Assembly: GCA_034189865.1 (NCBI GenBank)
Contig: JAXHTV010000025.1
Span: 1-36,929 of the forward strand
Length of the DNA: 36,929 nt
Origin: Pseudomonadota bacterium
Lineage (GTDB): Bacteria > Pseudomonadota > Gammaproteobacteria > UBA5335
Direction: 5' to 3'
Shown: one piece after another, positions 1 through 13,578 of the stretch
Layout: each line of letters starts with the position of its first letter
Position numbering within the stretch: the first letter of the stretch is position 1
Notes under the pieces: model-generated
The model's input: only the letters and a program-made list of their open reading frames with translations
Database searches by the model: none
What the model was told of the DNA's origin: nothing
Translations under genes and position numbers: made by a program

Positions 1-269
1 CCGAAATCGACCTGCCAGATACCGGACCAGTTTTCAGTTACCGAGCCTTCGATGTAGAAACGCATCCGACGGAGGAAAAAATCGTCGGTCGCATCGGCAT
101 CGGGTCCAACTGCAGGATCGAAGTCCTCATACTTGTACTGGGCCTGCAAACGCCCCCCTATTTCCACATACTTGTCGCCGTCTTCATAGACGGTAATACC
201 GGCGTGAGAAATCACCGGTGCGAGCGCCGCCATGCCCAAGACTACGCCCAATTTCTGCGTGGTTTTCAT
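1..269 (-). CDS. Phosphate-selective porin (OprO/OprP type), 5' part only
   Basis: The visible N-terminal 89 residues begin with a short signal peptide (MKTTQKLG followed by a hydrophobic stretch ending near Ser-His-Ala). They continue into beta-barrel sequence of the porin O/P family, with the features YVEIGGRLQAQY, a D-rich loop, and FFLRRMRFYIEG. The rest lies beyond the left edge. A GGAG motif sits about 7 bases before the chosen ATG. The gene lies downstream of phoB-phoR on the same strand, and a four-half-site Pho box array is placed directly in front of it. The expected role is an outer-membrane channel for phosphate or other anions induced by phosphate starvation. Family assignment is from recognised N-terminal pattern; substrate is inferred from context. 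Confidence 0.8.
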   Translation of the reverse strand, partial: MKTTQKLGVVLGMAALAPVISHAGITVYEDGDKYVEIGGRLQAQYKYEDFDPAVGPDADATDDFFLRRMRFYIEGSVTENWSGIWQVDF

Positions 270-380: not shown

Positions 381-386
381 ATCCTA
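381..386 (-). promoter_or_regulatory. Candidate -10 hexamer of the PhoB-dependent porin promoter
   Basis: TAGGAT (4 of 6 matches to TATAAT) lies exactly 10 bases after the last Pho half-site. That is the usual distance where a Pho box replaces the -35 element. The predicted transcript has a leader of about 105 nt before the porin ATG. Confidence 0.5.
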
Positions 387-396
387 GAGACGCCGC

Positions 397-435
397 ATGA
401 CCAAAACATGACACGATTGTTTCAGTTTTATGACA
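397..435 (-). promoter_or_regulatory. Tandem Pho box: four PhoB half-sites at 11-bp period
   Basis: Read on the minus strand, the hexamers TGTCAT, TGAAAC, TGTCAT and GGTCAT start at 435, 424, 413 and 402. Each is exactly 11 bases from the next, with A/T-rich or mixed 5-base spacers. PhoB is known to bind head-to-tail 11-bp repeats of the type CTGTCAT-N4-CTGTCAT, so this is two adjoining Pho boxes. The array points to the porin at 269, about 130 bases downstream. Confidence 0.82.
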
Positions 436-467: not shown

Positions 468-1799
468 CTAAACAGACGAACGCCTTGGTGCTTGCTCGGC
501 GGTCCCTCGCGACTTAAGCACGATACGACTGGAAGGGAAGTGGCAAGTGAAGGTGCTTCCGACATCGGGCTGACTCTCAATGGTCAAAAGCGCATCGTGT
601 CGTTGCAGACCGTGTTTGACGATGGCCAGACCAAGGCCGGTCCCGCCCTGCTCTCGACCCCGACCACTGTCGACGCGATAGAACCGTTCTGTCAGCCGGG
701 GCAAGTGATGATCAGCGATACCGATCCCGGTATCGGATACCGAAACCACAAGCTCGCCTGCCTCCTCGGCCGAGCGAACGTGGATACTTCCCCCGTCGGG
801 GGTGTACTTGACCGCGTTGGACAAAAGATTGTCGAAAACGCCACGTAACTCGCTTTCAACGCCGCGCAATCCAAGTTCGGGCGCCGCATCCAAGGTGATC
901 TGAAGACGATCTCCTGCCAATGCGCGTGCGTCCTCACACACTTGGCTTAACAGCACCGCCAAATCGACGGGCATCACGTCGCCCGCACCCTCCGATTCAT
1001 CCAGGCGAGAAAGCAGGAGAAGATCCTCCACCAATTGCGTCATACGCCGGACTTGAGCCTGCATTTCCTGCACGGGGCCCTCCCAGTGGCGCATCGGGCC
1101 TTTCACATCCTCTCGAATCACCTCAAGATAACCGGTCAAAACCGTCAGAGGTGTTCGCAACTCGTGGGATGCGTTGGCGACGAAGTCGCGGCGGACCTGA
1201 TCGAGCTGATGAACACGGGTGATGTCCCGGACCAACAGCAGCCGTTGGTCTTCGCCATAGGGCACCAATTGCAGTGACAAAACGACACCCGGGTGTACGG
1301 GTGAGGGAATCGTCACGGGTTCGGAATAATCTCCCGCCGAGAGATACTGGACGAACGCCGGGGCTCTGACCAAATTGACGATGAGTTGATTATTGTCGGC
1401 GGGCGCCTGCAGATCCAACCATCGCTGCGCCGCGGAGTTGAACCACAGGATCCGCAGCTTGGGCGACAACACCACCGCGCCATCGGGCATCGCTTCTGTC
1501 GAACGAACGAACTCTTTGAGAATTCCCGCGAGACGGCGTTTACGCTGCCGACTTCGCCGTTTGATCTGATGGATTTGAAGATGAATATCAGCCCAGACGC
1601 CCCGCCCCTCTGGCGGCACGACGCGCTTCACGCCGCGCAACCAGCGATCCAGACGATAAGCTTGTCGGGCATGAAACGAGAGCAGAAAACCCAGGGCAAT
1701 GACGAGCGACCACGAAAGCTGTCCGGTCAGCAAGCCAATAAAGCTTGCCAGGACTAAAATCGCAGCCAGGCGCCAGGCCTCATAGGCCCAGGGCGACAC
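468..1799 (-). CDS. phoR: PhoR phosphate-regulon sensor histidine kinase
   Basis: The 443-residue protein has two N-terminal membrane helices (about residues 10-25 and 28-43). These are followed by a basic linker, a PAS domain (about 95-195), a HisKA domain with the phospho-accepting His212 in ASHELRTPL, and a HATPase domain. The ATPase shows the N box around Asn324-Asn328, the G1 motif DTGIG (356-360) and GGTGLGLAIVKH (385-396). The absence of a large periplasmic domain, with a cytoplasmic PAS, is the PhoR architecture; PhoR is known to sense phosphate status through the Pst/PhoU complex. The gene starts only 5 bases after phoB, so the two are co-transcribed. No pst or phoU genes occur in the window. 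Confidence 0.93.
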   Translation of the reverse strand: MSPWAYEAWRLAAILVLASFIGLLTGQLSWSLVIALGFLLSFHARQAYRLDRWLRGVKRVVPPEGRGVWADIHLQIHQIKRRSRQRKRRLAGILKEFVRSTEAMPDGAVVLSPKLRILWFNSAAQRWLDLQAPADNNQLIVNLVRAPAFVQYLSAGDYSEPVTIPSPVHPGVVLSLQLVPYGEDQRLLLVRDITRVHQLDQVRRDFVANASHELRTPLTVLTGYLEVIREDVKGPMRHWEGPVQEMQAQVRRMTQLVEDLLLLSRLDESEGAGDVMPVDLAVLLSQVCEDARALAGDRLQITLDAAPELGLRGVESELRGVFDNLLSNAVKYTPDGGSIHVRSAEEAGELVVSVSDTGIGIADHHLPRLTERFYRVDSGRGREQGGTGLGLAIVKHGLQRHDALLTIESQPDVGSTFTCHFPSSRIVLKSRGTAEQAPRRSSV

Positions 1800-1804
1800 G
1801 ACGT

Positions 1805-2500
1805 TTAACCTTGAACGGAGAAACGATATCCGGCGCCACGGACCGTCTGCACCAAATGGGCCACGCCGTGCTGCTCCAACGCCTTACGAAGGCGGCGGAT
1901 ATGGACATCGACCGTCCGTTCTTCCACATAAACGCTTGGCCCCCACACACGATCTAAAAGTTGGCTGCGACTGTAGACACGCTCCGGGTGTCCCATAAAG
2001 AAATGTAGCAAGCGGAACTCGGTCGGGCCAAGATTCACCAATTCGCTATCGACTGTCACGCGGTGCCCCGATGCATCCAGTCGGACACCACCCATCTCGA
2101 GCAGGTCTTCCTCGCTCTCAGGACTCGCCCGGCGTAGTACGGCGTTGATTCGGGCCACCAACTCCCGCGGGGAGAAAGGTTTGGTGATGAAGTCGTCGGC
2201 ACCGGCATTCAGGCCGCGGACTTTGTCGTCCTCCTCCGCACGCGCCGTTAACATAATAATCGGAATTTCGCGGGCGACATGATCCTTGCGCAGGCTGCGG
2301 GCCAAATCCAAGCCACTCATGCCCGGCATCATCCAGTCAAGCAGGACGACGTCGGGCCGGATATCGGCGATCGCTGTTCGGGCCTCGGCGGCATCAGCGG
2401 CCTCCAACACCTGGTACTGCTCACGCTGAAGTGTAAAACTCACCATCTGGCGAACGGATTTTTCATCGTCAACGACCAAAACGGTTTTAGATGCGCTCAT
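1805..2500 (-). CDS. phoB: PhoB phosphate-regulon response regulator
   Basis: This is a 231-residue OmpR/PhoB-family regulator. The receiver domain (about 1-120) has the acidic pair Asp11-Asp12, phospho-acceptor Asp55 (LLDWMMPG), Thr85 and Lys107 (ITKPFSPREL). The C-terminal winged-helix domain (about 130-230) ends with the recognition part VDVHIRRLRKAL and VRGAGYRF. It is the first gene of the phoB-phoR unit. Phosphorylated PhoB is expected to activate the porin promoter at 397-435. The ATG at 2500 is preceded by a weak GAAGAG ribosome-binding motif. Confidence 0.95.
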   Translation of the reverse strand: MSASKTVLVVDDEKSVRQMVSFTLQREQYQVLEAADAAEARTAIADIRPDVVLLDWMMPGMSGLDLARSLRKDHVAREIPIIMLTARAEEDDKVRGLNAGADDFITKPFSPRELVARINAVLRRASPESEEDLLEMGGVRLDASGHRVTVDSELVNLGPTEFRLLHFFMGHPERVYSRSQLLDRVWGPSVYVEERTVDVHIRRLRKALEQHGVAHLVQTVRGAGYRFSVQG

Positions 2501-3027
2501 CGATACTCTTCACAACGAGTTGGATTTTAAGACAGAGGCATTACAACAAACGACTATGACAGTATGGTTAACATCGTGACGAGTAAGTCCCAAAACCACG
2601 CCCCAGCCGACTATCCGCTAAGAGTTATGACCACGTCCTGGCTCGACCATTCACATATTTGCAATATACTACCGGGCTGTCACACGACCAATACCACGCG
2701 TTGACCAGGCTGCACCCGCTCCGATAAGCATGGCCCCCTCCCGCCAGACGATAGGCCAGAGCCGAACCGGGCAAAAAACGTTAGAGACGTCACGCCACAA
2801 AAAGTGGCACAATATACGGCCTTTGCATCCAGCGGTGGGCTGGCTCGACGTTTTTTATTTATTTAACGTATCGATACTCCACAACGCTTAACTTAATAAA
2901 AAGAATGCCGGCACTTTTGTCGTCGGCAAACCGAACGTGTCGCGATGCCGGGTGACCAGGACGCACCTTCACCGTATTGGCAAGCTAGCCAGGAAGCGCA
3001 AGCTTCGCCCTTGGTACAACGACGATC
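2501..3027. other. 527-bp divergent intergenic region between phoB and the PAS sensor
   Basis: No credible gene is seen. It holds the phoB promoter candidate, and a perfect short hairpin GCCAC-AAAAA-GTGGC at 2794-2808. It also contains a second near-copy of the phoB start region (ATCGATACTC..CACAACG, 2870-2886 compared with 2499-2517). The stretch 2848-2900 is A/T-rich and probably carries the promoter of the gene at 3028, but no clear -35/-10 pair stands out. Confidence 0.6.
2524..2529 (-). promoter_or_regulatory. Candidate -10 of the phoBR promoter with a lone Pho half-site upstream
   Basis: TAAAAT (5 of 6) lies 24 bases before the phoB ATG. Further upstream on the same strand, CTGTCAT (2556-2562) matches a single Pho half-site, but no partner half-site at 11-bp phase is convincing. 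Autoregulation of phoB is common in the family; here the sequence support is weak. Confidence 0.3.
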
Positions 3028-4524
3028 ATGGCCAAAACCTCCTCGCCTTTTTATCGTTCGTACCCAACGTTTGCGTTTGGGGTGCTTGCCTTACCGATCA
3101 TCTATGCCGCGCTGGGCGTTACCTGGGTCGTTCTCACCGACCAGTTGCTCCATATCATCATGCCCAACAGTTCGGCCTACCCGATATTGCAAACGGTAAA
3201 AGACAGCTTATTGGTTGTCATCACCGGTTTTCTGATCGGCTGGGTTCTGGCGCGTTTGAGAATCCGCCTGCGGAATGGGGAAAACCGCATTCGCTCGGTG
3301 TTGAACAGCACCAGCGACGGCATGATCGTGCTACGTGACGGACACATTGTTCTTTCCAACCTGGCCTGCTGCCGGCTTCTCGGTTATGAACGGGAAAGCG
3401 AATTGCTGGGCTTGGATGGAAAGCGTTTCTTTGATCCGCAAGCGTGGACAGAAATGCGCGAACACTGTCGGGGCCAAGATTTTGGCTTAGCGTCTTCACG
3501 ACGTAATCACATCGTGGCCAAGGACCGCCAGGGAAATCGATTCCCGGTGAGTGTGGGACTCAGCAAACTGCAGATGGGAAAAAACCGGTACCAAATCCTG
3601 CTGATCTCGCCGCTGGATCAAGCCCACGAACACGCATCGAGTCTGCAATCCGAAAGAGACTTTCTCATGCAGGTGCTGGAAAACCACCCCGACGGCTTGG
3701 TGGCACAAGACGAGAATCGAGAAATACGGTTCATCAACCGAGCCGCCCGCCACCTGCTGGGGCTGCCCTTGAATGCCTGGCCAACGGATCACTTAGTGAA
3801 CAAGCTTGAGATCCCGGCCCCGTCGGACGCCCCGCTTTCGCCAGTTTCGGCCGCCGATATAACGGGTTATTCGAGTGAACAAACGCCCTTGGCGGCAAAA
3901 TCGTTCGAGGTGCGGGATGACGAGCAGCGCACAGTCGCGCAAGCCCTCGCGCTCTCGCCGCTCGATGCCGTCACCGGGCACTCCGCCGGGGATCATCCAG
4001 CCTCAAAAACCCTGCAGGTTTTGCTCGAGTTGCAACGCTTGTCGAAACAAGTGACCGATGTGGAGTCGTTTCTAAAAGATGCCTGCCCGGCGCTGCATCC
4101 GCTGCTCCGTCCACGCCCCTGGATCGCTCTGGCCTTAGTCGATTCAAAAACCCACCAAGGGCAAATGTTCCAACCCAGCGGTACAGAGCGGGACCCCGTG
4201 AGCTGCGTTCCGTTGCGCGTGATAGAGCCCCCCGTGGCAGACGCCGAACATGCGCGGGTGTTCGACATGGATCAGCCCAGTCCATTGGGGCATCCCCCGG
4301 CTATCCGCCATGCCCTCGAAAACGCAGGGATCGATCACTACCTGCAAATTCCGGTTCACGCGTCCAATGGCGTTCTCGGCTTGGTCATTGTCGGGCTTCG
4401 CGACGGCCGGCGACCGTCACCCGAAGTGGAATATGTCTTGGCCGATTTTGCGACCAAAGCCACAGCCGTTTATTCCGCGCCATCAAATGGCGAGACGCCG
4501 ACCGTGCAGCGGGCAGCCCCTTAG
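3028..4524 (+). CDS. Membrane PAS-PAS-GAF-like sensory protein lacking an output domain
   Basis: The 498-residue protein starts with two membrane helices (about 13-38 and 58-80). Their connecting segment contains LTDQLLH and LQTVKD, resembling the N-terminal membrane module often found in PAS-GGDEF/EAL proteins. A PAS domain follows (about 85-195; NSTSDGMIVL and LLGYERESELLG), then a second, shorter PAS (about 213-270; ENHPDGLVAQDENREIRFIN). After a Ser/Pro/Ala-rich linker comes a GAF-like C-terminus (about 330-485). No HisKA, HATPase, GGDEF, EAL or DNA-binding domain is visible, and the gene ends naturally with TAG. The start lacks a good Shine-Dalgarno. It is divergent from phoB and convergent with pepN (10-bp gap). 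Signal and target are unknown. Confidence 0.7.
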   Translation: MAKTSSPFYRSYPTFAFGVLALPIIYAALGVTWVVLTDQLLHIIMPNSSAYPILQTVKDSLLVVITGFLIGWVLARLRIRLRNGENRIRSVLNSTSDGMIVLRDGHIVLSNLACCRLLGYERESELLGLDGKRFFDPQAWTEMREHCRGQDFGLASSRRNHIVAKDRQGNRFPVSVGLSKLQMGKNRYQILLISPLDQAHEHASSLQSERDFLMQVLENHPDGLVAQDENREIRFINRAARHLLGLPLNAWPTDHLVNKLEIPAPSDAPLSPVSAADITGYSSEQTPLAAKSFEVRDDEQRTVAQALALSPLDAVTGHSAGDHPASKTLQVLLELQRLSKQVTDVESFLKDACPALHPLLRPRPWIALALVDSKTHQGQMFQPSGTERDPVSCVPLRVIEPPVADAEHARVFDMDQPSPLGHPPAIRHALENAGIDHYLQIPVHASNGVLGLVIVGLRDGRRPSPEVEYVLADFATKATAVYSAPSNGETPTVQRAAP

Positions 4525-4534
4525 CTCACCTGAG

Positions 4535-7162
4535 TCAATCCGCCAAAGAACGCGTCACCAGATCGGCCACATCCACTGGGAGCGCCGCTTCAGAGCGAAT
4601 GCGCAACAACGCCTCGCGCATCCCATCGTTGTGGGGTGCCGCGAAACCACGCCAATTGACCAGTGCAGTGGTGATTCGAGCGGCCACTTGCGGATTGATG
4701 CCGGACAGCGCGATGACTTGGTCAGCGGTAAATTCGTACCCCCTACCGTCCCGGGCGTGAAAACGGGACGGATTGGCCCGACAAAATGTGCCAATCAACG
4801 CCCTGACTTTATTCGGCAACTTGAGACTGAACGCGGGATGCGCCATCAACGTTCCGATGCGCTCCAGACAATCCGTCCGCCGCGATGCCGCCTGCACTCT
4901 CAACCACTTGTCGACCACCAAATCTTCATCTCGCCAACGATCGTAAAAACGCGACAGCGCAGAATCGGCAGCATCCCCACCCTGCTCGGCCAACAAGGTC
5001 AAAGCGGCCAGTGCGTCGGTCATATTTCGGGCATTGTTGAACTGGTGAACACACGAATCGCGAAACGCATCAGCATCGCTGGCGCCCATCAAGAAGTACA
5101 GGCAGTGGTTCTTCAACGCCCGGGTTCCGGTGGAATCTTCGCTCGCCAGGTCCGAGTAACGGCGAACCAATACGTCGCCGAGGCGATCACCGATATGACG
5201 TCGCAACAGCTGCCGGGCAGCGTCGAGTGCCAATGGGTCAACAATCGGCTGTAGGGCGACGAGGTAATCGAAATCCGGCAATTCCAGCAAGGTTGCCACA
5301 AAGGCCGGATCCCCTGACGGGTCACCCAATACCTGACCGATCGCCTCACATAGGGGCTCGTCCAAGGCGGTCACCGCTTGTGAGACACTGGCGCCCAAAA
5401 TCCACTCCGTGAGCAAACTCTGTCCGGCGTCCCAACGATTGACCGGATCGTCATCGTGCCTAAGCAAGAACAAACGATCCTCCCGACTCGGGATGGTCGC
5501 GACTCGAACGGGGGCCGAGAACCCCCGGAAAAGCGAGGCCACAGGCCGATGAGGGACATTCAGGAATTCTACTGTTTGGATAGACTCCCGCAGTTCAAGC
5601 ACCATCTCCCTGCCCTGCGCCTGCTCGTCGCCCGATCGTTGCAGCGGCACGTGTCGCCCATCCGGCGCAAACAGTGCCAGGCGAACCGGGATATGCAACG
5701 GCTCTGCCTCTACCCGCCCGGGGGTGGAAGACGGCTGCTGTTGAAACTCCAACCGGTATCGACCCGAAGCTTGATCGTACGTCGAACGGATGCTAATCCG
5801 TGGCGTCCCGGCCTGCAGGTACCAACGTCTGAACTGAGCCAAATCCCGACCGTTGGCGTCCGCCAAGGCCGCGAGAAAATCCTCCACCGTGACCGCTTGG
5901 CCGGTGTGCCGCGCAAAATACAAATCCATGCCGCGGCGAAACCCGGAGGCACCGAGCAAGGTATGCAACATGCGAACGACTTCGGCGCCCTTCTCATAAA
6001 CCGTCGGCGTATACAGATTGTTGATCTCCCGATATTCCGCCGGACGAACCGGATGGGCCGTCGGACCGGAATCTTCGGGAAACTGGGATGTTCTCAGATG
6101 CTGAACTTCCCGGATGCGCTGAACGCCGGCAGAATGCATGTCCGCAGAAAACGACTGATCGCGAAATACGGTCAGTCCTTCTTTGAGGCTCAGCTGGAAC
6201 CAGTCCCGGCAGGTGACGCGGTTGCCGGTCCAATTGTGGAAATACTCGTGCGCGACCACTGACTCAATGTGCTCGAAATCCCGGTCGGTCGCGGTATCGG
6301 ACCGCGCCAGCACGTATTGCGCATTGAAGATATTGAGACCCTTATTCTCCATCGCCCCCATATTGAAGGCACTAACCGCAACGACCATGTATAAGTCGAG
6401 GTCGTATTCCAGCCCATAGACATCTTCGTCCCAGCGCATGGCGCGCTTCAAAGAATCGATCGCGTAGCGGCACTTGTCCTGTTCGCCGTGCTCGGCGAAA
6501 AAATGAAGTGTCACCCGGCGCCCCGAACACGTCTCGAATTGATCCTCTACACAGGCCAAATCCGCTGCAACCAAGGCAAACAGGTAGCAGGGCTTGGGGT
6601 AAGGGTCATCCCAGATCACCTCGTGCATGTCGTTTTCCAACGCTCGCCTGGCAACCAAATTACCGTTGGACAACAAGACCGGATAACGCGACTGGGAGCT
6701 CCGAATCGTAGTACGGAAACGGCACATCACATCGGGTCGATCGGGGAAATAGGTGATACGGCGAAAACCTTCCGCCTCACATTGAGTGAAAAGTCCTTTC
6801 TCGGCTGCATACAACCCTTCCAGGCTGTTGTTCTCAAAGGGTCGGATGCGATTAACGATCTCCAACTCGAAAGGTTCATCCCGCGGCGCGGCCAGAGGAA
6901 TCACCAACCGATCTGCTTGCTGATCGTAATCTCCCTCACCCAGCATCCGGTCCGCACAGCGCACCGAAACCAGCGATAACCCCTCCCCCGCAAGAACCAG
7001 AGACGGCGAACCCTCGGCAGCGGGGTTACGGCGCAGCATCATCGTCGATTGCACCGTCACGTACTCATCACCCAACTCAAACAGCAGGTCGCAGCGATCG
7101 ACCCAAAAAGCCGGCGGACAGTAGTCACCCAGTCGGGTCATATCGGGCACAGTCGAACTCAT
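4535..7162 (-). CDS. pepN: Aminopeptidase N (M1 zinc metallopeptidase)
   Basis: The 875-residue length equals E. coli PepN-type enzymes. The substrate-binding GAMEN motif is at 269-273, the zinc motif HEYFH at 305-309, and the third zinc ligand Glu328 lies in KEGLT; all active-site hallmarks are intact. The N-terminal beta domain, thermolysin-like domain and long helical C-terminal domain (ending MREALLRIRSEAALPVDVADLV) are all present. It removes N-terminal residues from peptides in the cytoplasm during protein turnover. The ATG at 7162 has AGGAAG about 10 bases upstream. It is transcribed alone and convergent with the sensor gene. Confidence 0.96.
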   Translation of the reverse strand: MSSTVPDMTRLGDYCPPAFWVDRCDLLFELGDEYVTVQSTMMLRRNPAAEGSPSLVLAGEGLSLVSVRCADRMLGEGDYDQQADRLVIPLAAPRDEPFELEIVNRIRPFENNSLEGLYAAEKGLFTQCEAEGFRRITYFPDRPDVMCRFRTTIRSSQSRYPVLLSNGNLVARRALENDMHEVIWDDPYPKPCYLFALVAADLACVEDQFETCSGRRVTLHFFAEHGEQDKCRYAIDSLKRAMRWDEDVYGLEYDLDLYMVVAVSAFNMGAMENKGLNIFNAQYVLARSDTATDRDFEHIESVVAHEYFHNWTGNRVTCRDWFQLSLKEGLTVFRDQSFSADMHSAGVQRIREVQHLRTSQFPEDSGPTAHPVRPAEYREINNLYTPTVYEKGAEVVRMLHTLLGASGFRRGMDLYFARHTGQAVTVEDFLAALADANGRDLAQFRRWYLQAGTPRISIRSTYDQASGRYRLEFQQQPSSTPGRVEAEPLHIPVRLALFAPDGRHVPLQRSGDEQAQGREMVLELRESIQTVEFLNVPHRPVASLFRGFSAPVRVATIPSREDRLFLLRHDDDPVNRWDAGQSLLTEWILGASVSQAVTALDEPLCEAIGQVLGDPSGDPAFVATLLELPDFDYLVALQPIVDPLALDAARQLLRRHIGDRLGDVLVRRYSDLASEDSTGTRALKNHCLYFLMGASDADAFRDSCVHQFNNARNMTDALAALTLLAEQGGDAADSALSRFYDRWRDEDLVVDKWLRVQAASRRTDCLERIGTLMAHPAFSLKLPNKVRALIGTFCRANPSRFHARDGRGYEFTADQVIALSGINPQVAARITTALVNWRGFAAPHNDGMREALLRIRSEAALPVDVADLVTRSLAD

Positions 7163-7446: not shown

Positions 7447-8616
7447 ATGCCTCGAGGCTTACTGAGATTTGTAGTTTTAGCGGCCATAATCCTCGTGGCG
7501 GGGATTTGGATTTATGGTTTGGTGACCACCGACGAAGAGCTGGCTGTTCCAGACAAGGCGATCGTTCCAGTCGAAACCACGACGATAGCCAACCGAACCA
7601 TTCGCGAGTACCGCTTTTTTTCCGGCACCTTACGACCCAATGCTCAATTCATTGTTGCGCCCAAAATGGGCGGCCTTCTGGAAGGCTTGGTCGTTGATAT
7701 CGGCGATACCGTTGAGAAAGGACAGATGGTCGCCTGGTTGGAAGATGATGAAGTCATCCAGGAAGTCGTGCGCGTCGAAGCCCAGCTTGAGGTTGCCAAA
7801 GCACAACAGGCTGAAGCCAAAGCGTCCGGAGCCGTCGCACGACGGGAATTCGACCGGGTCAAAAGGCTGCGATCACAAAAAGTCGCGTCAGAAGCGGAAT
7901 ACGACGCCGCACTCACGCGCTTGAGCGCCGCCGAAGCGCGAACCAGCGCCGCCAACGCACAACTCCGTCAGGCCGAAGCTGCGCTGAAATCGGCCGAAAT
8001 TCGCTTGTCCTACACCAAGATCCAAGCCGATTGGGCCGATGAAGATACTCAGCGCGTTGTGGGCCAACGGTTCGTTGATGCCGGCACCATCTTACGTCCC
8101 AGCGAACCCATCATTTCGGTGTTGTCGATCGAACCCATCGTCGCGCAAATCACCGTGGCGGAACGGGACTACACCCGCATGAGTATCGGTGAGCCCGTCA
8201 CCGTCCTGACTGACGTGCACCCAGGCCAAGAGTTTCCCGGCGAAATCGTACGAATCGCTCCCCAGTTCAACGAATTCTCCCGTCAAGCTCTGGTGGAAAT
8301 CGAGATAGATAACCAGAGCAAGGATCTCAAGCCCGGCATGTTCATTCGTGCGCGAGTGCTATTTGCAGAAGCAGAAAACGCCATCGTGATTCCCGCCAGC
8401 GCCATCGTGGAACGAAACGGCAAACCCGGGGCCTTCGTGGTTGAAGAGTCGGGCGACAAAACGCTCGCGCGATTCGTCCCGCTACAGCTCGGGTTAACCG
8501 AGAATGAGGGAATTCAGGTTGTCGAACCGGCTATTGAGGGTCAAGTCGTAACCTTGGGCTTGCACCTGTTGGACGACGGAACGCCGATCAAGATCTCCGA
8601 GACACGATCATTTTAA
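7447..8616 (+). CDS. RND efflux periplasmic adaptor (membrane fusion protein)
   Basis: The 389-residue HlyD/AcrA-family protein has a single N-terminal membrane anchor (about 5-26) and no lipobox cysteine. The biotinyl-lipoyl half motif is around APKMGGLLEGLVVDIGDTVEKGQMVAWLEDD (split around 73-103). A long Ala/Glu-rich coiled-coil hairpin (about 108-180) follows, then beta-barrel and membrane-proximal domains (IVAQITVAERDY, PGMFIRARVLF, VIPASAIVERNGKPGAFVV). It links the permease to the outer-membrane factor encoded directly downstream. It is the first gene of a three-gene operon. Substrate cannot be deduced. Confidence 0.92.
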   Translation: MPRGLLRFVVLAAIILVAGIWIYGLVTTDEELAVPDKAIVPVETTTIANRTIREYRFFSGTLRPNAQFIVAPKMGGLLEGLVVDIGDTVEKGQMVAWLEDDEVIQEVVRVEAQLEVAKAQQAEAKASGAVARREFDRVKRLRSQKVASEAEYDAALTRLSAAEARTSAANAQLRQAEAALKSAEIRLSYTKIQADWADEDTQRVVGQRFVDAGTILRPSEPIISVLSIEPIVAQITVAERDYTRMSIGEPVTVLTDVHPGQEFPGEIVRIAPQFNEFSRQALVEIEIDNQSKDLKPGMFIRARVLFAEAENAIVIPASAIVERNGKPGAFVVEESGDKTLARFVPLQLGLTENEGIQVVEPAIEGQVVTLGLHLLDDGTPIKISETRSF

Positions 8617-8698
8617 CTGTTAGTACAGCGGACTTCGTCAACCTAATCTAACTCATGGACTCGCGGCACACGGATTGGCCGCCGGGGATGCAATAACT

Positions 8699-11600
8699 AT
8701 GAATATCCCGCGTTTTACGGTTACTAGACCCGTTTTTACCAGCATGGCCATGCTGATCCTGGTGATCCTGGGCTCTTTCACTTTGCTCAGAACCAACATC
8801 GATCTGATGCCGGACTTGAGCTTGCCCACACTCACCGTCATCACGACCTATGAGAACGCCAGCCCGGAGGAGATGGAAGAACTCATCACCGAACCGCTGG
8901 AGGCTGTTTTAGCCTCCATCACGGGTGTTGAAACGTTACAGTCGACCTCACGGGAAGGACAAAGCGTCATCCGGGTCAGTTTTATTTGGGGAACCAACCT
9001 AGACGCTTCGGCCAACGATATCCGGGATGGCTTCGATCGTATTCGTGGCCTGCTGCCGGAAGACGCTGATGAGCCCATCATGCTCAAGTTCGATACCAGC
9101 AGTTTCCCGGTGATCATCCTCGGCGTCGGCAGCCAGCTCGACCCCATCACCCTGCGGCGAATGATCGACGAGCAGGTCAAGTTCCGCATCGAACGCCTAG
9201 AAGGCGTGGCGGCGCTCAACATTTGGGGCGGTCTGGAACGGGAAATTCAAGTCCATTTGTATCCGGACAAAGTCAAAGCACTGCGCCTGAGTATGGAGGA
9301 AGTTCTCCAAGGACTGCGGACCGCCAACGTCACCCTACCTGCGGGCAGCGTAGAAAAAGGCACGGCAGAAGTCCGCATCCGCGTGCCCGGTCGTTATGAA
9401 TCCTTAGATCAGATCCGTAATACGGTGGTCGCAAACCGCGCGGGCGTCCCAGTCTATCTGTATCAAATCGGAGATGTCGTAGACACGCACGCCAAGATCG
9501 AGCGCAAGGCACTGATCAATGGCGACCCGGGCGTGCAAATGTTGGTTCGCAAGCAAGCGGGCTACAACACGGTAGAAGTCACCAACCGAGTGATGGCAGA
9601 GCTTGAGAAAATCAAGCGTGATTTCCCTCAACTGTCCATCGTGCCGGTGATCAACACCGGCGAGTACATCCAGCGCGCCATGGACAACATGACCATGTCC
9701 TTATATTTCGGCGCGGCGATGGCGTTCTTGGTGTTGTTGTTCTTCTTACGGAATCTTCGGGCATCCCTTTTGGTGGCCACGGCCATGCCCATTTCCGTTT
9801 TGTTCGCCTTCGTGCTGATCTACTTTTCAGGATTCACCCTGAACATGATGACCATGGGTGGTCTCGCCCTGGGCATCGGCATGATGGTCGACAACGCCAT
9901 CGTGGTGCTTGAAAACATTACGAGGAAGCGGGAAGAGGAAAATTTAGATCCCATCAACGCATCCATCGACGGCGCCCAACAAGTAGCCCTGGCTATCACC
10001 GGCGGCACCCTCACCACCATGGTGGTGTTCCTGCCGCTAATCTTCGCCGAGGGTATCGCCGGCGAAATGTTCGGACAGCTGGGTTACGTGGTGAGCTTTT
10101 CCCTTTCGGCATCGCTGCTGGTCGCCCTCGCGCTGGCACCGATGTTGGCTTCCCGGCTCCTGCAACGCCAAATCAGCTTGGGAGACCGGGTCAGTGCCAT
10201 TGCTGATCGCATCGGAGCCATGCTGAGCAGGATGGAAGCACGCTATAAACGCTTCCTCGAGCCGTGTTTGCGCCACCCCTGGCGGGTGGTAGGCACGGGT
10301 GTCGGCTTGGTTCTTCTCACGACCGCCATGATTCCACTGATGGGCACCGAATTCATGCCGCCTTCCGACGAAAGCGAAGTCCGCGTTGAATTCGAAATGC
10401 GTCCCGGCACACGCTTGGATGTGGTCGAAGAAAAGATGCAGCAGTTGATCACGATGATCCGAGACCGCGTACCCGAGTTGAAGCACATGGTCGTCACCAT
10501 CGGCCCCACACTGATTCGGCCGGAAGCAAAAGCAACCGGGGAAATGATCATCGCGTTGGTTCCGGTGGTAACCCGGGAACGCTCCAGCGACGATGTTGCC
10601 GATCAGTTGCGTATCGAATTAGCGGATTTTCCGGGGGGCATCCTCCGCAGTCGCGCCCCGCAGGACATCATGCTGCAGATGATTGGAGGTGGTGAGCCGA
10701 TTCAGCTTGAGATCCGCGGCTATGATCTCGATACGCTGCACACCATGGCCAATCAAATCGCCGAAGGCCTTAATAATGTTCCGTATATCACGGATATGCG
10801 GTTGCCTGAGCAGGAAGGCGTCCCTCAGATTCTATTTCAGGTAGATCGCCAGAAAGCGGCTGACCTGGGCCTGAGCGTGGCGCAGATTGCCCGCACCATG
10901 GAAATTGCGGTGGGCGGAAGCATCGCCAGTCGCTACACCGAGGGTGCTGAAGAAGCAAACATCGTCATCAAGCTGAAAGATGCCCAACGCATGTCGGTAG
11001 ATGACATCCTCGATCTCACGCTGCTAAATCCGATGGGGCAGCAGATCATGCTTCGAAATGTTGTCAGAACGGAAGCCAATCTGGGCCCCGTCAAGATCGA
11101 ACGCAAAGACCAGCAACGGACCATCACCCTGGGTGCTAACTTTACGGGCGCGGATTTAGGAACCGTGATGACGGAAGTTCGCAGAGTCGTGGCCGACGTC
11201 CCGGCACCCGTCGGCTACCAAGTTGTCTATGGCGGACAGTACCAAGAGCAAATCGAAGCGTTCAAAGACCTGATGATGGTTCTCGGTCTGGCGGTGATCC
11301 TGGTCTACATGATCATGGCGATGCTGTACGAATCGCTGAGGGATCCGTTGGTGGTGATGTTCTCGGTGCCGCTCGCCATTATCGGGGTGAACATCATCCT
11401 GTTATTGACGGATACGACCTATAACATCGTGTCAATTATCGGATGCGTCATTCTCGTCGGCGTCGTGGTGAATAACGCGATCGTGCTTGTGGACCAAACC
11501 AATTATCTGCGAAGAGACCGCGGCTTCGGTTTGGACGAGGCACTGCTGGAGGCTGGCCGAACCCGTCTACGCCCTATTCTCATGACGGCCATGACCACCA

Positions 11601-11758
11601 TACTGGGGCTGGTGCCGCTGGCCATCGCTCAGGGCGAGGGCGCTCAGATTCAGCAGAGCATGTCACGGGCGGTGATCGGTGGGCTACTCAGTTCCACGGC
11701 GATCACCCTGGTGATCGTTCCCACGGTCTACAAGCTATTTCACCGCAAGGAAGCGTAA
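8699..11758 (+). CDS. RND-family inner-membrane efflux permease (AcrB/MexF superfamily)
   Basis: The 1019-residue length and layout fit a full RND pump: one N-terminal helix, a first periplasmic domain, helices 2-7, a second periplasmic domain, and helices 8-12. The N-terminus MNIPRFTVTRPVF is typical of the family, so the ATG at 8699 is preferred over a TTG at 8675. In TM4 the sequence is GMMVDNAIVVLENI: the first proton-relay Asp of AcrB is kept and the second is Asn. In TM10, VVNNAIVLVDQ has Asn where AcrB has the relay Lys. This pattern is common in a non-AcrB subgroup of RND pumps, so the pump is not assumed inactive. It ends 2 bases before the next gene. Confidence 0.94.
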   Translation: MNIPRFTVTRPVFTSMAMLILVILGSFTLLRTNIDLMPDLSLPTLTVITTYENASPEEMEELITEPLEAVLASITGVETLQSTSREGQSVIRVSFIWGTNLDASANDIRDGFDRIRGLLPEDADEPIMLKFDTSSFPVIILGVGSQLDPITLRRMIDEQVKFRIERLEGVAALNIWGGLEREIQVHLYPDKVKALRLSMEEVLQGLRTANVTLPAGSVEKGTAEVRIRVPGRYESLDQIRNTVVANRAGVPVYLYQIGDVVDTHAKIERKALINGDPGVQMLVRKQAGYNTVEVTNRVMAELEKIKRDFPQLSIVPVINTGEYIQRAMDNMTMSLYFGAAMAFLVLLFFLRNLRASLLVATAMPISVLFAFVLIYFSGFTLNMMTMGGLALGIGMMVDNAIVVLENITRKREEENLDPINASIDGAQQVALAITGGTLTTMVVFLPLIFAEGIAGEMFGQLGYVVSFSLSASLLVALALAPMLASRLLQRQISLGDRVSAIADRIGAMLSRMEARYKRFLEPCLRHPWRVVGTGVGLVLLTTAMIPLMGTEFMPPSDESEVRVEFEMRPGTRLDVVEEKMQQLITMIRDRVPELKHMVVTIGPTLIRPEAKATGEMIIALVPVVTRERSSDDVADQLRIELADFPGGILRSRAPQDIMLQMIGGGEPIQLEIRGYDLDTLHTMANQIAEGLNNVPYITDMRLPEQEGVPQILFQVDRQKAADLGLSVAQIARTMEIAVGGSIASRYTEGAEEANIVIKLKDAQRMSVDDILDLTLLNPMGQQIMLRNVVRTEANLGPVKIERKDQQRTITLGANFTGADLGTVMTEVRRVVADVPAPVGYQVVYGGQYQEQIEAFKDLMMVLGLAVILVYMIMAMLYESLRDPLVVMFSVPLAIIGVNIILLLTDTTYNIVSIIGCVILVGVVVNNAIVLVDQTNYLRRDRGFGLDEALLEAGRTRLRPILMTAMTTILGLVPLAIAQGEGAQIQQSMSRAVIGGLLSSTAITLVIVPTVYKLFHRKEA

Positions 11759-11760
11759 GC

Positions 11761-13578
11761 ATGACCGAACAAAATCAGACTTCCGAGCGCGCTTTGTTCA
11801 GCGTCACTCCGGCGAGCCGGCTCCTTCTGTGCGCCTTGGCTCTACCCATCGCAGTAGGTTGCAAAACCGCACCGGAGTATCAGCCGCCCGAACCGCAATC
11901 GACTCCGGGTCCATCGGCTCTACAGAGAAGCGTCCAGGAACAAGCAACCGAATATACCCGCTTTTCCGGACCGCCGATTATCGAAGATAGCGGTCAAGGC
12001 GCGCTCGAAGTTTCTCGGGAACAAGCTGTGATGCTAGCTCTGAAAAACAATCGGTTGCTTGCAATCCAAACTTTGACTCCCATGTTACGGGGTGCTTTCG
12101 AGGACATCGAACGTTCGCGCTATGACGTCAATCTGTTCGCCCAAGCATCGTACGGCAAAGACAAAAGCCAGTTCTTCTTCCCGGGCGTCGGCACCATTCC
12201 GGAAGGACTCGAATTTGATCCGCGTCCGTCGTTCTTACCCCCCTTCTTATCCCCCAGCGAGCCGGTGACAATCGAAGGCGGCGCCGAGTCTCTTAAAGCC
12301 GAACGGGGCGAAGCAGAAGTCGGGCTTAGCAAGCGTTTTGTCACGGGTACCCAGGTCGACGTGTCGGTATCGAGCGAAGTACTCAAAAGCCAGAGCGATA
12401 CCATCGAAGAGTTAATCCTCGAAGACCTGGATGTGGAAGCCGGCGACCAACAAAGTCGATTTCGCGTGGGATTGACACTGACCCAGGCGCTGTTGCGGGG
12501 CGGAAGTCCGACAGCCAATTTGGCACGAATTCGTCAGACCGAGGTGGAGTCGTTGGCCTCGGCTTATCAACTCCGCGGATTCACACAGTCGTTGGTGGCC
12601 CAAACCGAATCACTCTATTGGGACTACTTCCTGTTCAAACGACGCATTGAAATTCTCGAAGACTCTGTCGCCGTGTCAGAGAAGCAACTGGGCGAGTTGG
12701 AAAAACGGGTACAAGTTGGTCAAATTGCGGAAACCCAACTGCCTGCTGCCAGAGCGGAATTGGCGTTCCGCCGCCAAGCTCTGATCGAAGCCCGCAGCGG
12801 ACTCGAACGACTCCGCCTGCGCTTTTTACAGATCATGAACCCGGAAAGTCTTGATGGGTGGGATCGTCGTATCGAAATTCTCGATACACCGACCCTTCCG
12901 CCCGCCATTGAGGACTCAGTCGAGGATCATATCAAACTGGGCCTTCGCCTAAGGCCCGACCTCAACGAAGCTCGGCTTCAGCTGCAAAGCGGAGAGCTTC
13001 AGGTTGTTCAGACGAAGAACGGATTGCTCCCGCTCTTGAACTTATTCATTAACCTCGGCAAAAGCGGCTACGCCGATTCGTTTTCAGACTCCGTCGACAG
13101 TTTCTCGGACGGTGACGAAAACTACTACGATATCGGCGCAGGGATTCGTCTCGACTATCCCCTGCGGAATCGACAAGCCCGAGCCATTCACACCCAGGCG
13201 GTGACCAGTCGGAACCAACGGGAATTGGCTTTGCAGAATCTCGAGCAAAGCGCGGAACTGGACGTTCGCAGCGCCTACCTGGAAGTCGAACGCGCCAGAG
13301 AACAAGTGAACGCCACCGGAATCACCCGACGATTCCAGGAAGAAGCCGTACGTGCCGAACGTGAAAATTTTCGCGTCGGCCGAACCACATCCAGCGTAGT
13401 CACCCGCGTGGAACGAGATCTGTTCTCCGCAGAAGTCGATGAAGTTCGCGCGATCGTGGATCTGCGTAAAGCCATGATCGAACTCTATCGCCAAGACGGC
13501 AGCTTATTGCAACGGCGGGGCATCACGACACCGGGAACCGACGCGTCCGCAAGTTACGGGCTTCCGGCCGGCGGATAA
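11761..13578 (+). CDS. TolC-family outer-membrane efflux protein, probable lipoprotein
   Basis: This is the third gene of the pump operon, starting 2 bases after the permease stop. The N-terminus has a hydrophobic signal followed by PIAVGCKTAPEYQPPEPQ, a plausible lipobox with Cys at about 34 and a Pro-rich linker. Two OEP repeats follow; long helices are evident around 275-345 and 490-580 (SLVAQTESLYWDY, LDVRSAYLEVERAREQV). At 605 residues it is over 100 longer than common TolC homologues. The extra length lies in the N-terminal 60-200 region, which includes Pro/Phe-rich segments (FFFPGVGTIPEG, RPSFLPPFLSPSEP). It forms the exit duct of the tripartite pump. Confidence 0.9.
   Translation: MTEQNQTSERALFSVTPASRLLLCALALPIAVGCKTAPEYQPPEPQSTPGPSALQRSVQEQATEYTRFSGPPIIEDSGQGALEVSREQAVMLALKNNRLLAIQTLTPMLRGAFEDIERSRYDVNLFAQASYGKDKSQFFFPGVGTIPEGLEFDPRPSFLPPFLSPSEPVTIEGGAESLKAERGEAEVGLSKRFVTGTQVDVSVSSEVLKSQSDTIEELILEDLDVEAGDQQSRFRVGLTLTQALLRGGSPTANLARIRQTEVESLASAYQLRGFTQSLVAQTESLYWDYFLFKRRIEILEDSVAVSEKQLGELEKRVQVGQIAETQLPAARAELAFRRQALIEARSGLERLRLRFLQIMNPESLDGWDRRIEILDTPTLPPAIEDSVEDHIKLGLRLRPDLNEARLQLQSGELQVVQTKNGLLPLLNLFINLGKSGYADSFSDSVDSFSDGDENYYDIGAGIRLDYPLRNRQARAIHTQAVTSRNQRELALQNLEQSAELDVRSAYLEVERAREQVNATGITRRFQEEAVRAERENFRVGRTTSSVVTRVERDLFSAEVDEVRAIVDLRKAMIELYRQDGSLLQRRGITTPGTDASASYGLPAGG

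Follow-up and report, generated by a model that had tools for sequence, protein, structure and literature searches.

PhoB binds direct-repeat Pho boxes, and structural models support a strict spacing between these boxes and the core promoter elements (PMC10294691). The Pho box itself is described as a pair of 7-bp repeats separated by 4 bp (PMC4563254). In Pseudomonas aeruginosa, OprO and OprP are reported as well-known PhoB targets (PMC8025907), and the two genes were up 82- and 87-fold under low phosphate (PMC9769906). For marine heterotrophs, a Pho box has been described in front of PlcP and a glycosyltransferase (PMC4796936).

The window, which is the whole stretch of 36,929 bp that was analysed, is identical to contig C25 of a 2.9 Mb assembly in 72 contigs. 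It carries phoB, phoR and the beginning of an OprP/OprO-type porin gene, and the array in front of the porin is very probably a canonical PhoB-activated promoter at which PhoB binding is predicted. All findings fit the published background on PhoB, OprO/OprP and PlcP.

The array, its regulator and the porin

The features of the locus are as follows (window positions).
1-269, minus strand: N-terminal 89 codons of the OprP/OprO-type porin, start codon at 267-269; the gene continues in contig C7
381-386, minus strand: -10 element TAGGAT, 4 of 6 letters matching TATAAT
397-402, minus strand: promoter-proximal Pho half-site 4, GGTCAT (7-mer TGGTCAT), half-site score -5.2 by the E. coli matrix
408-413, minus strand: Pho half-site 3, TGTCAT, half-site score 7.7
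419-424, minus strand: Pho half-site 2, TGAAAC, degenerate, half-site score 9.0
430-435, minus strand: Pho half-site 1, TGTCAT (7-mer GTGTCAT at 430-436), half-site score 10.3
468-1799, minus strand: phoR, sensor kinase (TIGR02966, 400.9 bits, cut-off 334.2; PF11808)
1805-2500, minus strand: phoB, response regulator (TIGR02154, 354.6 bits, cut-off 296.2; comparison with E. coli PhoB)
2525-2573, minus strand: two weak, mutually out-of-phase Pho-box-like pairs before phoB (13.0 and 12.2 bits)

The sequence of the array and the -10 element, 436 to 381 on the minus strand, is GTGTCATAAAA CTGAAACAATC GTGTCATGTTT TGGTCAT GCGGCGTCTC TAGGAT. Direct reading of this strand places the four half-sites at a spacing of exactly 11 bp throughout, with a gap of 10 nt from half-site 4 to the first base of TAGGAT. 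Four hexamers in exact 11-bp phase with TAGGAT ten bases on had already been claimed in the sequence-only reading, and both the letters and the coordinates agree with it. A Pho box promoter was defined here by at least two CTGTCAT-type 7-mers with 4-bp spacers and an 11-bp period, by a -10 element 10 nt past the last half-site without a consensus -35, and by the presence in the genome of a cognate PhoB whose recognition-region residues are conserved. Four such units were found, the -10 lies at the defined distance, and promoter prediction called no sigma-70 -35/-10 pair at the array; half-site 4 takes the place of the -35 in the porin promoter.

The array was scored with a matrix of 15 half-sites from six promoters of E. 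coli K-12 MG1655 (phoA, phoB, pstS, phoE, ugpB, and phoH), which was applied to the window, to 115,122 bases of stretches from the same genome (some overlapping), and to the upstream regions of five phosphatase genes. With 19.3, 27.0, and 21.8 bits, respectively, the array outscored every other two-, three-, and four-unit site on both strands of the window. When the window was shuffled 200 times with its dinucleotides preserved, 2 of the shuffles came up to the two-unit score and none to the score for three or four units. An Rfam search of the window returned no family at its gathering score, and a covariance model of the array was not obtained because the alignments shifted by one repeat unit.

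Both models behind the phoR and phoB assignments are curated NCBIfam models with curated cut-offs. The PhoB of the window is identical to E. coli PhoB in 132 of 231 aligned columns overall; for the DNA-binding half the figure is 67 of 105, and the phospho-acceptor D53 is the same in both proteins. The ten positions checked in the recognition region (193, 194, 197-201, 203, 217, and 219) are also all identical, in agreement with the E. coli matrix performing without adjustment.

The porin gene is split between two contigs. Window positions 1-121 equal C7:111491-111611, an exact contig overlap of 121 bp inside the porin gene, and contigs C25 and C7 thus adjoin. The full protein has 381 aa and scores 63.4 bits (3e-17) with Pfam Porin_O_P (PF07396), above the curated cut-off of 20.9, which places it in the OprP/OprO family. 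A profile built from this porin and five phoBR-linked relatives matches the solved Porin P structure 2o4v at 3.9e-48 and also matches Porin O. The single porin sequence gave no direct sequence match to the solved OprP structure, so that its phosphate selectivity is putative, and a scan with this sequence found no relatives among the named genomes. Downstream of the porin lies a strong intrinsic terminator with 10 pairs in its stem and a z-score of -3.9 for folding, followed by phoU on C7. With a predicted promoter on one side and a terminator on the other, the porin therefore looks like a single-gene unit. Elsewhere in the window, an RND efflux adaptor, a permease, and a TolC-like outer-membrane gene lie in a row at 7447-13578.

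Porins linked to phoBR in other genomes

TIGR02966 matched in 79 of 114 genomes of the class at the threshold used, a number that includes the genome of the window, and 60 phoR loci were sampled from these genomes, with 18 left out. An OprP-type porin was found beside phoBR in six of the 60 loci. The porin is divergent from phoB in four of them, upstream on the same strand in one (L142), and downstream of phoR in one (L166). A phased Pho array in the direction of the porin was computed for all six loci, with four-unit scores from 15.2 to 34.1; the 99th percentile was 12.2 for 350-bp pieces cut from the same loci, a null that hence contains true Pho boxes. One of the six (L153) had scored below zero with an ORF start placed too far upstream, and its array was recovered in the porin's direction when 4200-5100 (901 bp) was rescored. 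Linkage of such a porin to phoBR, together with a Pho array, thus recurs across the class.

Two of these loci resemble the window in different respects. L166 (genome G046) has the same phoB-phoR-porin order and a phased Pho array, but lacks a good -10 at the 10-nt gap. The L142 porin (genome G091), 48% identical to that of the window, has four half-sites, a 10-nt gap, and GATAAT, whereas its gene order differs from the window (porin-phoB-phoR). Among the 80 named loci nearest by PhoR, which were mostly from Pseudomonas, no porin matching the search profile was found beside phoBR. Among the papers listed by literature searches there was likewise no phoBR-linked OprP-type porin, from which absence is not claimed.

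Pho boxes elsewhere in the genome

The motif shared by the regulon was searched across the whole genome with a pattern of two hexamers, a 10-nt gap, and -10 letters at up to 2 mismatches, and the same pattern read backwards served as the control. The pattern had 29 matches vs 7 for the reversed control. Six of the 29 precede the porin, pstSCAB, a second pstS-like gene, the sqd (sulfolipid) operon, phoA, and phoD; only the phoA and phoD matches are independent, the pattern having been shaped with the porin, pst, and sqd sites known and the box of the second pstS already visible earlier. The other 23 matches were without an assigned phosphate gene. A PhoX-like gene and a second and third phoD gene had no match at up to 2 mismatches. 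A 9-nt-gap pattern gave 21 matches vs 17 for its control, a comparison that serves only as a loose control of spacing, as the -10 letters are not the same in both patterns either. An earlier pattern from the same genome, CTGTCATNNNNCTGTCAT at 3 mismatches, had 121 matches vs 61 for the reversed control and was rejected as too loose for single sites.

The pstSCAB operon on contig C7 is preceded by TTGTCAT, 10 nt, and then TATTTA. Between pstSCAB and the second pstS-like gene, the Pho boxes are divergent (L003:1290-1760, C7:99290-99760), and both have a -10-like hexamer 10 nt on. Upstream of phoA (contig C3) and phoD (contig C13) lies one match of the 10-nt-gap pattern each. By the E. coli matrix, the sites of phoA (8.8, three units), phoD (1.8, two units), and the second pstS (9.6, two units) are weak. 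As at the porin, phoA and an operon on contig C28 have four 7-mers in 11-bp phase, followed by a gap of 10 nt, with several of the 7-mers degenerate. A genome scan for Pho boxes, as proposed in the sequence-only reading, recovered pst and phoA, here by pattern search. The “self-contained” phosphate response that this reading had predicted for the locus is not supported: pstSCAB, phoA, phoD, and the lipid operon sit with their own boxes on other contigs, and the remainder of the porin as well as phoU lie on C7.

On C28 (L065:708-3961, C28:5707-8960 of the window's genome G000, minus strand), an array of four half-sites with CATACT 10 nt on stands before an operon with genes for a GT4 glycosyltransferase, a UDP-sulfoquinovose synthase-like protein, and an LpxH/PlcP-like phosphoesterase. 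The synthase was called with NF041015 at 3.9e-103, under its curated cut-off. The phosphoesterase is labelled PlcP-like from its metallophosphoesterase match and its neighbours. The Pho box before this operon predicts membrane lipid remodelling under phosphate control in this organism. Tentatively, the Pho regulon of the lineage may couple phosphate capture (porin, pst, PhoA, and PhoD) to the replacement of phospholipid by sulfolipid through the C28 operon, and four phased half-sites may be its preferred strong-promoter form, a proposal we hold with somewhat less than even confidence.

Further Pho-like sites were observed in the genome. A Pho-box pair, TTGTCATATTGCCGTCAT, lies 5' of an outer-membrane protein of the Alginate_exp family without a good -10 (L066:2543-3975, C33, minus strand). 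Nearly identical pattern matches at two contig ends (C28:112-144 and C35:24383-24415; L107 and L110) are probably copies of a repeat, and a 317-aa ORF begins 53 nt downstream of one of them. At C6:64178-64210 (L094), an intergenic Pho-like pair with a matrix score of 16.1 is without an identified target.

Competing readings and comparison with known systems

The gap between phoR and the array is about 32 nt, phoB, phoR, and the porin share one strand, and no terminator was found in this gap, so that read-through from phoBR could also supply porin transcript. That the porin is transcribed mainly in this way from an autoregulated phoBR operon, with the array secondary or boosting, is nonetheless improbable. 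The Pho-like pairs before phoB, which would serve such an operon, reach a three-unit score of 7.4 vs 27.0 for the porin array with its -10 at the right gap, and the L142 porin lies upstream of phoB, where read-through from phoBR cannot reach it, yet its promoter is laid out in the same way. The best of the pairs before phoB ends 51 nt short of the phoB start, and autoregulation of phoB through them is possible. A chance resemblance or a decayed site outside PhoB control, to which two degenerate half-sites of four and an imperfect -10 might point, is highly improbable given that no shuffle reached the three- or four-unit score, that the array recurs before phoBR-linked porins in other genomes, and that pst, phoA, and the sqd operon of the same genome have boxes in common with it.

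The porin promoter is an ordinary, well-formed example of the known phosphate-starvation control system, although half-site 4 is a poor fit to the E. coli matrix and only 4 of 6 letters of the -10 match. By analogy with E. coli and Pseudomonas, low external phosphate would lead PhoR to phosphorylate PhoB, and PhoB dimers would line up head to tail on the four half-sites in 11-bp phase, of which half-site 4 lies at the -35 position. Bound PhoB would then recruit sigma-70 RNA polymerase to TAGGAT, and the induced porin would be transcribed as its own unit up to the terminator before phoU, with phosphate presumably passing through the OprP/OprO-type pore.

The interpretation given in the sequence-only reading stands for a Pho box array in E. 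coli register before a phosphate-type porin directly after phoB-phoR; besides self-containment, two of its parts are not supported. For the “strongest output on the porin”, the scoring shows only that no other scored stretch of this genome exceeds the array at three units of the E. coli matrix. The “lineage-specific motif” is at odds with a matrix made only from E. coli sites that puts the array first in the window, and with a PhoB in which the recognition residues are those of E. coli. For a gammaproteobacterium that has been little studied, the ordinary E. coli rule serves to annotate the phosphate regulon.

The PhoB-activated promoters of E. coli (phoA, pstS, phoE, and phoH) are alike in having CTGTCAT-type 11-bp direct repeats in place of the -35, and phoA, read from MG1655, shares the 10-nt gap to the -10. 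While E. coli phoA has two half-sites, the array of the window has four in phase, the second and fourth of which are degenerate. With P. aeruginosa oprP/oprO, the locus has the porin family PF07396 in common. By the locus numbers in PMC9769906, oprP and oprO (PA3279/PA3280) lie away from phoB (PA5360), whereas the window has one porin, directly after phoBR.
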